Source of the DNA: Streptomyces showdoensis
GTDB taxonomy: Bacteria; Actinomycetota; Actinomycetes; Streptomycetales; Streptomycetaceae
Assembly (NCBI RefSeq): GCF_039535475.1
Contig: NZ_BAAAXG010000002.1
Location: 248,001 to 312,000 of the forward strand
Reading direction: 5' to 3'
Length of the DNA: 64,000 bases
The stretch's first letter is position 1. Every line of letters begins with the position of its first letter. Both the position numbers and the translations under genes were made by a program. Of this stretch, positions 27,820-31,929 are shown piece by piece. Below the pieces are notes generated by a model, which had not been told where the DNA came from, made no database searches, and saw only the letters and a list, made by a program, of their open reading frames with translations.

Positions 27820-29343
27820 CTAGAAGAAGCCGAGCTTCTTCGGCGAGTACGACACGAGAAGATTCTTGGTCTGCTGGTAGTGGTCCAGCATCATCTTGTG
27901 GGTCTCGCGGCCCACGCCGGACTGCTTGTAGCCGCCGAAGGCCGCGTGCGCCGGGTACGCGTGGTAGCAGTTGGTCCAGACGCGGCCCGCCTGGATGGCG
28001 CGGCCCGCGCGGTAGGCGGTGGTGGTGTCGCGGGTCCAGACGCCGGCGCCGAGGCCGTACAGGGTGTCGTTGGCCGTGCGGACGGCGTCGTCGAAGTCGG
28101 TGAAGGACGTGACGGCGACGACCGGGCCGAAGATCTCCTCCTGGAAGACCCGCATCCGGTTGTCGCCCTCGAAGATGGTCGGCTGCACGTAGTAGCCGCC
28201 CGCCAGCTCGCCGTCGTACTCGATCCGCTGACCGCCCGTCAGGATCTTCGCGCCCTCCTGCTGGCCGATCTCCAGGTACGAGAGGATCTTCCCCAGCTGG
28301 TCGTCGGAGGCCTGCGCGCCGATCATGGTGGCCGTGTCGAGGGGGTGGCCCGGGAGGATCAGCTCCGTGCGGGCGATCGCCGCCTCCAGGAACTCGCGGT
28401 AGTGACCGCCCTGGATCAGCGCCCGTGAGGGACAGGTGCACACCTCGCCCTGGTTGAGGGCGAACATGGTGAAGCCCTCCAGCGCCTTGTCGCGGAAGTC
28501 GTCGTCCGCCGCCCACACGTCGTCGAAGAAGATGTTCGGCGACTTGCCGCCCAGCTCCAGGGTGACCGGCTTCAGGTTCTCCGCGGCGTACTGCATGATC
28601 AGCCGGCCCGTCGACGTCTCGCCGGTGAAGGCGATCTTCGCGATCCGGGGCGAGGACGCCAGCGGCTTGCCCGCCTCCTCGCCGAAGCCGTTGACGATGT
28701 TCACCACGCCCGGCGGCAGCAGGTCGGCGACCAGGCTCAGCCAGTAGTGGACCGAGACCGGCGTCTGCTCGGCCGGCTTGAGGACGACCGCGTTGCCCGC
28801 CGCGAGCGCGGGGGCCAGCTTCCACACCGCCATGAGGATCGGGAAGTTCCACGGGATGATCTGGGCGACCACCCCCAGCGGCTCGTGGTAGTGGTACGCC
28901 ACGGTGTCCTCGTCGATCTCGCTCAGCGAGCCCTCCTGGGCCCGCAGCGCGCCCGCGAAGTAGCGGAAGTGGTCGATGGCCAGGGGGATGTCGGCGGCCA
29001 GGGTCTCGCGGACCGGCTTGCCGTTCTCCCAGCTCTCGGCGACCGCCAGCGCCTCCAGGTTCGCCTCCATCCGGTCCGCGATCCGCAGCAGGACCTGGGC
29101 CCGCTCCGCCGGCGCCGTGCGGCCCCAGCCCGGCGCCGCCGCGTGCGCCGCGTCCAGTGCCCGCTCCACGTCCTCGGCCGTGCCGCGGGCCACCTCCGTG
29201 AACGCCCGGCCGTCGACCGGGCTCGGGTTCTCGAAGTACCGCCCGCGCGCCGGGGCGACGTACTCACCGCCGATCCAGTGGTCGTAGCGGGGCGCGTACG
29301 ACATGATCGAACCCTCGGTGCCGGGTGCGGCGTAACGGGTCAT
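27820..29343 (-). CDS. exaC: NAD-dependent aldehyde dehydrogenase (ExaC/acetaldehyde type)
   Basis: 507 residues. ALDH superfamily with [19 protein letters not shown], the Glu in TLELGGKSP, and the catalytic Cys in [11 protein letters not shown] (about residue 301-303); the CTCPSR form is characteristic of the ExaC/AldA group that oxidises acetaldehyde and other short aldehydes in ethanol breakdown. ATG 29343 has GAGGAGG eight bases upstream, preferred to ATG 29349. The GAF regulator gene ends 47 bases upstream on the same strand, an arrangement common for alcohol/acetoin-type regulons. Transcription ends at the adjacent perfect hairpin. Confidence 0.9.
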
Positions 29344-29390
29344 GGGCATGGCCTCCTCGTACCGCGCCGGCCGTCCCTGGCCGGCTGTGC

Positions 29391-30794
29391 TCAGCGGCGA
29401 GTCTGCGCGGTCCGACGTTGCAACCCCGTTGCACCCGAAGCCAGTTCGGCGTCCAGCGCGCTGAGCCGTGCCCGTACGGCCGGGGCCTGCGCCGCCGGTA
29501 CGGCCGAGGCGAGCGCCCGCCACACCGCCAGGTCGTCCTCGCCCCACGCGCTGTACGCCCAGTCGGCCAGCAGCCCCGGATCGGCCCGGTCCACCAGCGC
29601 GGCCCGCAGCCGCCCGGCCAGCCGCTCCCGGAGACGTACCACCGCCGGCGCCCGCGAGCCCGGCAGCAGCGGCCCCGCGTACTCGCCGAGCGCCGTCGCC
29701 ACCGCACCCGAGGCGAGCCGCCGGTCCACCGTCAGGAAGTCCGCGTCGACCTCCCCGGCCAGCCGGTACGGGCGCGAGGCGAGCAGCTCCGCTCCGAGCA
29801 GCCCCCGCAGCCGGGACATCTCCGCCCGCAGCGTCACCGGGGTCACCGACTCGTCCTCGTAGAGCAGGGTCAGCAGCTCGTCACCGCCCACGCCCTCCGG
29901 CCGGTGCGCCAGGACCACCAGGATCTCGCTGTGCCGACGGCTCAGCCGCAGCCGCCGCCCCGCCAGCTGCAGCAGCGCCTCGTCCCGGCCCAGCGCCGAG
30001 AGCCGCGGGCGGGCGGCGGCCGGGGCCGGGGAGAGCAGCGCCAGCTGCGACTCCGCCGCCCGCGCCACCGCTTGCACGAACGCCAGGCTGTGCGGGTGCG
30101 CGAGCCCGTCCCCGCCCGTGATGTCGACCGCGCCGAGCAGCCGCCCGCTGCGCGGGTCGTGCACCGGCGCCGCCGCGCAGGTCCACGCCTGCGCCGGGCG
30201 CTGGAAGTGCTCGGCGGCGCACACCTGCACCGGCCGGTCCACGGCGAGCGCGGTGCCCGGGGCGTTCGTGCCCGCCGCCGTCTCCGACCAGCGGGCCCCG
30301 GGCACGAAGTTCATCCGGCGCGCGCTGCGGAGCGTCCCCGGGTGGCCCTCCACCCACAGCATCCGCCCCGCCGCGTCGCAGACCGCGATCAGATGCTCGC
30401 CGTCCCGCGCGTACGCCCCCATCAGCTCCCGGATCACCGGCATCGCCGCCGCCAACGGGTGCTCCTCCCGGTGCCCCGCCAGCTCCTCCTCGTCGAGCTC
30501 GACCCGCGCCGCGCCGTCCGGACTCACCCGCGCCCGCACCGAGCGCCGCCAGGACTCGGCGACCAGCGCCCGCACCGGAGGGACGCCGAGCGGACCCCCG
30601 GCCGTGAACGCCTCGTGCGCCCGGCGCACCGCACCGGACCCGCCCGTCGCACACCCCCCGGCCGCCCCGCCCGCCCCGGACCCGCCCGCCCCGGCCGCCT
30701 CGGCCGTCCTGTCCGCCCCGTCGGTCCCGTCGGTCCCGTCCGTCGTGCTCGTCGTGCTCGCGGTGCTCGTCGTACCGGTCCGCGCAACGCTCAA
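29391..30794 (-). CDS. GAF-domain transcriptional regulator (AcoR-like sensor, winged-helix output)
   Basis: About 467 residues. After a low-complexity Thr/Gly/Ala-rich N-terminus comes a module typical of AcoR N-termini ([10 protein letters not shown], then [11 protein letters not shown]), a GAF domain (about 120-270; [15 protein letters not shown] strand, [23 protein letters not shown]) and a C-terminal winged-helix-like domain ([20 protein letters not shown] ... [14 protein letters not shown]). It lacks the sigma-54 AAA domain of true AcoR. Probably activates the downstream aldehyde dehydrogenase. TTG 30794 is chosen since GGGGAGG lies five bases upstream; GTG 30935 is possible but lacks a binding site and would overlap the folD promoter region. 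Confidence 0.78.
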
Positions 30795-30881
30795 CTCGGC
30801 CTCCCCGGCGAGGTCGTCCGCCTCGTGGACGCCATCGTCGTGCGCGCGGGGGGCGCCGACAAGCGTCCGGGCGGCCTCGCA

Positions 30882-30913
30882 TATGCCCCCTGTCCTGTAT
30901 GCCCCCTGTCCGG
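30882..30913. repeat. Two tandem 16-base repeats in the regulator/folD divergent region
   Basis: TATGCCCCCTGTCCTG (30882-30897) is followed directly by TATGCCCCCTGTCCGG (30898-30913). They lie about 90 bases before the GAF regulator start and about 35 bases before the riboswitch, so they could be tandem operator half-sites for either gene. Confidence 0.7.
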
Positions 30914-30948
30914 TACCCGTCACGAGGACCGTCACGTACAGTGGTTCC

Positions 30949-31067
30949 GGGCCGTGACTGGCGCTTGAGGTGGATCACCACCGGGGAGCGGCCCGGCGGA
31001 CGCGCCCCGCGCGTCCGTGTCGCGGTCGCGCGCCTGGGCATCCACCGGTCATCGTCGACGCCCAGGA
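30949..31067 (+). promoter_or_regulatory. ZTP (pfl) riboswitch of folD
   Basis: Conserved pfl-motif pieces occur in order: GTGACTGGCG, then GGTGG-ATCA-CCACC, then GGGGAGCG, and after a variable hairpin CGCCTGGGCA. P1 pairs GGGCCG (30949-30954) with CGGCCC (30989-30994); P2 pairs 30969-30973 with 30978-30982; the linker folds as GGACGCG with CGCGTCC. The expected pseudoknot is present: GGCGC (30960-30964) with GCGCC (31030-31034). ZTP/ZMP signals a shortage of 10-formyl-tetrahydrofolate and normally turns on folate one-carbon genes such as folD. A plausible -10 (TACAGT, 30937-30942) places the transcript start at the aptamer. CCTGGGC (31033-31039) also matches GCCCAGG (31060-31066), which overlaps the AGGAG ribosome binding site. 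Confidence 0.9.
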
Positions 31068-31074
31068 GTGGCCC

Positions 31075-31929
31075 ATGTCCACCAGCACCGCCCGCCTCAT
31101 GGACGGCACCGCGCTCGCTCGCCGCACGGTCGAGGAGACCGCCGCCCGCGCCGCCGAGATCACCCGCCGCACCGGCACCACCCCCTGTCTGGCGACCGTC
31201 CTCGTCGGCGCCGACCCGGCCTCCGTCACGTACGTGAAGATGAAGCAGAACCGCTGCGCGAAGGCCGGAATCCGCTCCCAGCACGTCGAGCTGCCCGCCT
31301 CCACGACCACCGAGGAGCTCGTCGCGGCGATCACCGCGCTCTCCGAGGACCCCGAGGTCCACGGCATCCTGCTCCAGCACCCGGTCGGCCCGCACATCGA
31401 CGAGCGCGCCGCGTTCGAGGCCATCGCCCCGGAGAAGGACGTCGACGGCGTCACCATGGCCTCCTTCGCCGCCATGGGCTTCGGCCTGCCCGGCTTCGTC
31501 TCCTGCACCCCCGGCGGCATCATGCGGCTGCTCGACGCGTACGACGTCGAGCTCAGCGGCAAGCGGGCCGTGGTCGTCGGCCGCAGCGCGATCCTCGGCA
31601 AGCCGGCCGGTCTGCTGCTCCTCGGCCGCGACGCCACCGTCACCTACTGCCACTCCCGCACCACCGACCTCTCCGCCGCCGTCCGCGAGGCCGACATCCT
31701 CGTCGCCGCCGTCGGCAAGCCCCACTTCATCAAGGGCGAGGACATCAAGCCGGGCGCCGTCGTGATCGACGCCGGCTACAACCCGGGCAACGTCGGCGAC
31801 GTCGACTTCGCGAGCGCCGCCGAGCGGGCCTCCCTCATCACCCCCGTCCCCGGCGGCGTCGGCCCCATGACGATCGCCGTCCTGCTCGCCCAGACCGTCG
31901 AGGGGGCCGAGCGCCAGCTCGGGCTGTGA
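31075..31929 (+). CDS. folD: Bifunctional methylenetetrahydrofolate dehydrogenase/methenyl cyclohydrolase
   Basis: 284 residues, complete. The catalytic Lys lies in the SVTYVKMKQNRCAKAGI region (family YVxxK motif), the substrate loop is GILLQHPVGPHID, and the NADP-binding half has VVVGRSAILGKPAGLLLL and the terminal TPVPGGVGPMTIA signature. It interconverts 5,10-methylene-, 5,10-methenyl- and 10-formyl-tetrahydrofolate in the cytosol, feeding purine and formyl-Met synthesis. AGGAG is seven bases before the ATG and is part of the riboswitch expression platform. It is transcribed alone. Confidence 0.96.
   Translation: MSTSTARLMDGTALARRTVEETAARAAEITRRTGTTPCLATVLVGADPASVTYVKMKQNRCAKAGIRSQHVELPASTTTEELVAAITALSEDPEVHGILLQHPVGPHIDERAAFEAIAPEKDVDGVTMASFAAMGFGLPGFVSCTPGGIMRLLDAYDVELSGKRAVVVGRSAILGKPAGLLLLGRDATVTYCHSRTTDLSAAVREADILVAAVGKPHFIKGEDIKPGAVVIDAGYNPGNVGDVDFASAAERASLITPVPGGVGPMTIAVLLAQTVEGAERQLGL

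Follow-up and report, generated by a model that had tools for sequence, protein, structure and literature searches.

The pfl switch of Clostridium beijerinckii is described, in the accessible part of the report, as a strand-displacement device in which an invading strand begins by pairing with the 3' nucleotides of P3 and then advances through the pseudoknot; unless the ligand blocks its way an intrinsic terminator is completed, which gives an ON switch (PMC10085676). The ZTP riboswitches of Fusobacterium ulcerans and Thermosinus carboxydivorans belong to the same aptamer class and, as far as the available texts go, are also turned on by ZMP through terminator-based, transcriptional platforms (PMC7484762, PMC7337938). 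A Pectobacterium ZTP reporter was built as a translational lacZ fusion whose expression needs the ligand, but its available passages describe no expression platform, and its text uses none of the terms Shine-Dalgarno, ribosome binding or expression platform (PMC10117056). A covariation model of the full ZTP riboswitch, like the present work, offers comparative evidence for rearrangement of the aptamer by the expression platform; it was seeded from terminator-containing sequences, and its main text contains neither Streptomyces nor Shine-Dalgarno (PMC13273304). Within Streptomyces, the ydaO/c-di-AMP riboswitch is likewise thought, according to the excerpts available, to block the ribosome-binding site and translation initiation, although its aptamer, its ligand and its targets (cell-wall hydrolases as described) are different (PMC8079986). 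The terms ZTP, ZMP and pfl are absent from the texts of the transcript papers on S. lividans and S. avermitilis. No description of the platform treated here was found among the matches listed in the open literature, and Kim 2015 and Strobel 2019, which lie outside that scope, may describe translational members.

The window analysed here, a stretch of 64,000 nucleotides from Streptomyces showdoensis, contains an aptamer of this class immediately before a folD gene. It resembles the C. beijerinckii pfl switch in its aptamer and in the predicted order of displacement, P3 first and the pseudoknot afterwards. However, while the C. beijerinckii invader completes an intrinsic terminator, that of folD overlaps the Shine-Dalgarno sequence, from which we infer a translational output, unlike that of the Fusobacterium and Thermosinus switches. 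The aptamer is a known kind of sensor for folate shortage, and the translational platform proposed here is well supported by comparison of sequences. We assign a probability of roughly 0.78 to the reading that this ZMP/ZTP riboswitch controls translation initiation of the second folD of the genome as an ON switch. If true, a short, sequence-locked invader would let one aptamer be compared across two kinds of output, and one of the two FolD and one of the three SHMT genes would be folate-stress-inducible copies in an antibiotic-producing genus.

The aptamer, its putative promoter and the folD gene

The Rfam covariance-model search placed RF01750 at 30944-31046 of the plus strand; its 45 bits (E 3.9e-4) exceed the gathering score, which is 39 for this family. 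This was the sole RNA-family match over its gathering score in the window, and the same site was recovered in the genome search. The architecture of the family (P1-J1/2-P2, a 3' stem-loop P3 and a pseudoknot from J1/2 to the P3 loop) was complete. Both the Rfam alignment and a base-by-base check supported P1 (six pairs, 30949-30954/30989-30994) enclosing P2 (five pairs, 30969-30973/30978-30982) within 30949-30994. The base-by-base check also gave a linker hairpin of seven pairs at 30998-31016 (30998-31004/31010-31016) and the five pairs of the pseudoknot between GGCGC in J1/2 (30960-30964) and GCGCC in the P3 loop (31030-31034), all on the plus strand. A preliminary description, made from the letters alone, had listed these four helices, which the pair check confirmed, and the covariance search that it proposed gave the significant match above. 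P3, which was absent from its list, was found with the Rfam alignment and the pair check at 31025-31039 (+); it comprises three pairs (31025-31027/31037-31039), one of them U-G. The heptamer CCTGGGC (31033-31039, +), which we take to contact the ligand, is the core common to the pseudoknot, the ligand site and P3, and is also the predicted anti-Shine-Dalgarno strand.

Of 119 distinct folD core regions, 117 have a P3 built from GCC/GGC, and the two others are the window (GTC/GGC) and L195 (GCC/GGT); the base following GGGC is A in the window and G in 113 of the 119. In addition, the Rfam alignment flagged non-standard pairs at the outer end of the short P3 of the window. The U-G pair and the A after GGGC may produce a weaker P3 and a switch moved toward OFF. 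The U-G pair also bears on the idea that the window copy is a decayed element that has lost its function, to which we give scarcely any credit. That the U-G form occurs once in the 119 regions, precisely in the window, and that its 45 bits lie under the scores of the best 30 same-genus sites would be in line with decay, but a U-G is still a pair, nothing is missing from the pseudoknot, P1, P2 or the 7-bp complement, and the score exceeds the gathering score.

A putative -10 element, TACAGT (30937-30942, +), lies just upstream of the aptamer and was identified by the fixed spacing of TANNNT in relatives. Among 149 same-genus sites (one of the 150 was excluded for too little upstream sequence), 148 had this motif starting 7-11 bases ahead of the Rfam match, versus 44 of 1043 background windows; it started 3-11 bases before it in 76 of 80 class-level sites, three of them from the same genus, versus 3 of 560 in the background. 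Because its distance to the aptamer is nearly fixed, the RNA probably starts near P1, and the promoter seems to be passed on together with the aptamer as a unit. A scan of 30850-31150 with the sigma-70 consensus gave no promoter-like site. In S. lividans and S. avermitilis, according to the available parts of the papers, TANNNT is the reported -10 motif (PMC8079986, PMC8780764).

The gene directly 3' of the aptamer (31075-31929, +) encodes a protein of 284 aa with PF00763 and PF02882 over their cut-offs; NCBIfam FolD models also matched it, none of them, among the matches listed, reaching its own cut-off. The RF01750 copy thus precedes a one-carbon-metabolism gene, as expected of the class, and folD is included in the pfl-associated gene list in the accessible part of that report (PMC2864571). 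In the S. showdoensis genome (8.5 Mb, 29 contigs) RF01750 matches twice, at the folD copy and before a glyA, and there are two FolD genes and three SHMT genes. Contig 26 carries the other folD, whose product shares 46.9% identity with the window paralogue over 286 aligned columns. Some 12.5 kb separate it from the ZTP site of glyA, which is the single ZTP match of that contig. This glyA copy (L001; contig 26, 735633-735721, minus strand) is followed by a longer leader that forms other stable stems, and differs from folD, with its simple GYYC-AGGAG platform. Upstream of the ATG, the reading frame of the window's folD contains no stop across the aptamer as far as a GTG at 30970 (a 319-aa ORF, 30970-31929, +), so automatic annotation could put the start inside the riboswitch. 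Divergent to folD, the minus strand at 27820-30935 carries a GAF-domain ORF with weak similarity to DhaR (55.5 bits, cut-off 551); next to it comes an acetaldehyde dehydrogenase of the ExaC type, which scored over its own cut-off.

Complementarity between the aptamer core and the ribosome-binding site

The Shine-Dalgarno sequence AGGAG (31064-31068, +), read from the sequence, is separated by 6 nt from the ATG start codon (31075-31077). It is overlapped by GCCCAGG (31060-31066, +), the predicted displacing strand or invader, which is a perfect complement of the core CCTGGGC; both the complementarity and the overlap had been proposed in the preliminary description, and direct reading gave the same positions. 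The local 50-nt hairpin folded no better than its shuffles (93 of 200 were as good, z -0.05) and, in consequence, the case for the complementarity rests on conservation. The fold of the whole leader (z -1.74) was dropped as a proof since the folding method cannot model the pseudoknot. Nearest-neighbour energies were -13.1 kcal/mol for the hairpin, -1.4 for P3 and -8.4 for the pseudoknot, whose strands were treated as a simple duplex with the loop cost omitted; these modelled values favour the sequestered form as the one that RNA without ligand would prefer.

Conservation was studied in a genus sample of 150 genomes, of which 114 had an RF01750 match at E <= 0.001 and 112 one over the cut-off. 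This gave at least 150 same-genus sites; among the 150 listed, 57 lay before folD, 54 and 37 before two types of glyA, and 2 before a purH-like gene. The 57 genus-sample loci and 76 folD-homologue loci gave 133 folD leaders, 109 of them distinct, identical leaders being counted once and some genomes occurring in both sets. The homologue loci were the best 80 of 516 by similarity and lean to close relatives; a text pattern, and not Rfam, served to recognise the aptamer in 76 of these 80, L190, L215, L218 and L219 excepted. The same-genus site L095, with no recognised start, was left out. An initial class of four folD loci without aptamer was discarded, as for three of them it was an artefact of the text pattern: Rfam found the aptamer there, with 5, 7 and 7 pairs. 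L186 gave no Rfam match, but its sequence begins 154 bases before the gene.

The core CCTGGGC was present in 132 of the 133 folD leaders and the remaining one had CCTGGGT. When it was compared with the last 24 bases before the start, 91 of the 109 distinct leaders contained seven contiguous Watson-Crick or G-U pairs, 17 contained six and one contained five, versus seven pairs in 4 and six pairs in 17 of 115 background starts, a crude set of ORFs taken from the window and the folD-homologue loci by codon-position GC and Shine-Dalgarno match, doubtful starts included. L063 reached just 5 pairs, as did the rescued L188. The real heptamer was the top of its 140 permutations in these leaders (6.58; next 5.75; median 4.0). 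Furthermore, G-Y-Y-C stood before RGGAG in 82 of the 96 distinct folD leaders having RGGAG, versus none of 32 background starts (Fisher p 1.6e-19, a value inflated, as are all such p-values here, by the shared descent of the leaders).

For this reason, changes were also counted on a tree of the folD coding sequences with 92 leaders, 17 of the 109 (15 with CGCCTGG, L059 and L190) being omitted. As a C before RGGAG was required, the invariance at -1 and at the G and A positions and the lack of transversions at 0 arise by construction and were not used. Of the 23 changes inferred for the two free positions in the middle of the pairing, 22 were C<->T (17/17 at -2 and 5/6 at -3), so that pairing with G was preserved. 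The ten linker positions upstream underwent 219 changes, 127 of them transversions by hand sums, although these numbers are inflated because linker length varies and the columns were aligned from the Shine-Dalgarno sequence with no gaps allowed. Changes away from C went to T in 13 of 14 cases at the middle positions, whereas in the linker 39 of 101 did so (p 3.8e-5). At the outermost pair, position -4, six changes were inferred and the pair was lost in all six. Two-sided covariation was not found in the folD leaders, since the aptamer side hardly varies. The complementarity was conserved in the folD leaders, with the pair counts given above, and neither of the outcomes which that description had named as adverse, no significant Rfam match or loss of the complement in relatives keeping the aptamer, was observed.

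Minimum-energy folds from the core to the start codon paired the Shine-Dalgarno sequence with the core in 99 of the 109 leaders. An alternative helix between the Shine-Dalgarno sequence and an aptamer strand, as expected of a translational sequestration riboswitch, is thus conserved. In 15 of the 109 leaders (L010, L020, L022, L025, L028, L035, L037, L042, L045, L048, L050, L137, L205, L210 and L219) sites of the CGCCTGG(G)AGG type appeared instead, one of which reads CGCCTGGGGG. According to their sequence they could pair as CUGGGCG/CGCCUGG, with seven pairs, two of them G-U, one register over. The CGCCTGG of these ribosome-binding sites is also an exact repeat of the CGCCTGG of the aptamer core, and could mimic the pseudoknot strand.

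The GYYC might be conserved for another reason, such as inheritance, another RNA or a protein site, its complementarity with CCTGGGC having no regulatory role. The unremarkable folding energy, the relatedness of the leaders by descent and the nearly fixed aptamer side, hence the absence of two-sided covariation, fit such an explanation. We consider it very unlikely, however, because the linker changes freely while the middle positions change almost solely between C and T, the real heptamer beats 139 permutations, and a different gene, one type of glyA, obeys the same rule (34/44). Moreover, GYYC does not lengthen the pairing with the anti-Shine-Dalgarno end of 16S rRNA.

The predicted translational switch

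In the reading that we prefer, when ZMP/ZTP is scarce the emerging GCCCAGG would first pair with the 3' strand of P3 (GGGC) and next migrate into the end of the pseudoknot (CCT), and the resulting 7-bp helix would bury part of AGGAG. When ZMP/ZTP accumulates, on shortage of 10-formyl-THF, the ligand would lock P3 and the pseudoknot; CCTGGGC would then be unavailable, the ribosome-binding site would stay open and FolD would be made. As regards the terminator-type riboswitch, no terminator-like site was found in 30850-31150, and none of the 109 folD leaders had TTTT at -12 to +20 of the start. The match of the Shine-Dalgarno segment with the aptamer strand that is also invaded in C. beijerinckii, together with the lack of a terminator, makes a translational ON switch the most likely option. 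The ON direction fits the biology, given that ZMP/ZTP rise when 10-formyl-THF is short (PMC9481103) and that GlyA and FolD together can make formyl-THF (PMC2864571), both as stated in the accessible parts of these papers. Nevertheless, the direction of switching is not fixed by the aptamer, since a tandem ZTP arrangement, the moeA case, is predicted in the available text to be an OFF switch (PMC9481103). The translational reading had already been put forward in the preliminary description; the conservation across folD leaders, the C<->T changes that keep the pairing and the lack of a terminator support it, and the ligand-dependent step is a prediction.

The aptamer could instead act mainly on transcription, through the alternative helix together with Rho or pausing, the occlusion of the ribosome-binding site being secondary or a consequence. 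The published ZTP riboswitches of three papers are transcriptional in the texts available (PMC10085676, PMC7484762, PMC7337938), an RNA-seq survey reports, in its accessible part, that ZMP-ZTP loci, like those of other families, show termination (PMC12121620), and the action of Rho is invisible to the sequence methods used here. On the other hand, intrinsic terminators and TTTT near the start are lacking in the regions given above, and conservation is tied to the Shine-Dalgarno sequence even though the distance from the end of the core to the start codon ranges from 21 to 65 nt. On balance a mainly transcriptional action seems unlikely, and control of translation initiation remains the preferred reading.

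Reach of the platform among other ZTP leaders

The class-level set comprised 85 sites after exclusion of weaker ones and same-genus repeats. Five without the core pattern were dropped, as were leaders without a recognised start or core, and 71 were kept. Among the class-level glyA leaders kept, 21 of 41 had CCTGGGT instead of CCTGGGC, and five class-level sites with CGTCTGGG are not part of the kept set, so the core, called invariant in the preliminary description, deserves that name before folD and not in these glyA leaders.

The pattern GYYCRG, with a background rate of 13 in 115 starts, was found in 34 of 44 leaders of one Streptomyces glyA type, mostly as GTCCGGAGG with six pairs. It was present in 3 of 31 leaders of the second Streptomyces glyA type and 1 of 40 class-level glyA leaders, and absent from all 20 class-level leaders without an assigned gene, from the 4 leaders of the class-level set that belong to the second glyA type, and from the purH-like leaders (0/2 and 0/1). 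Class-level folD leaders had it in 2 of 5; three of these five are from the same genus (L232, L240 and L259), and the two outside the genus did not carry it. The heptamer ranked 11 and 22 among the 140 permutations in the two Streptomyces glyA types, 40 in class-level glyA leaders and 65 in those without an assigned gene. In minimum-energy folds the Shine-Dalgarno sequence paired with the core in 38 of 44 and 11 of 31 leaders of the two Streptomyces glyA types, and in 10 of 40 class-level glyA leaders. A rule valid for all ZTP riboswitches was rejected, as the enrichment is absent in the second glyA type and in the class-level sets. These comparisons tie the platform to folD and one type of glyA in Streptomyces and its close relatives, and not to the aptamer class itself.

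These data suggest a genus-wide translational ZTP regulon in Streptomyces. Its members, folD and one type of glyA, would share a platform whose displacing strand is the Shine-Dalgarno segment itself (GYYC-RGG). The fixed CCTGGGC would dictate the surroundings of the ribosome-binding site, and the platform would evolve mostly by C<->T wobble changes and register shifts. We regard this broader proposal as probable; the lack of the pattern in the two folD leaders from outside the genus, and in the second glyA type's four leaders of the class-level set, weighs slightly against it.

In two of the 150 same-genus sites (L043 and L140) the aptamer precedes a gene read, from its translation alone, as AICAR formyltransferase-related. 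Finally, in six class-level glyA leaders (L243, L244, L252, L266, L267 and L275) reading by eye showed that the strand just after the core (CCTCCGGC-like) is complementary to GCCGGAGG, which sits at the ribosome-binding site, as in a local sequestering hairpin unlike the folD platform.
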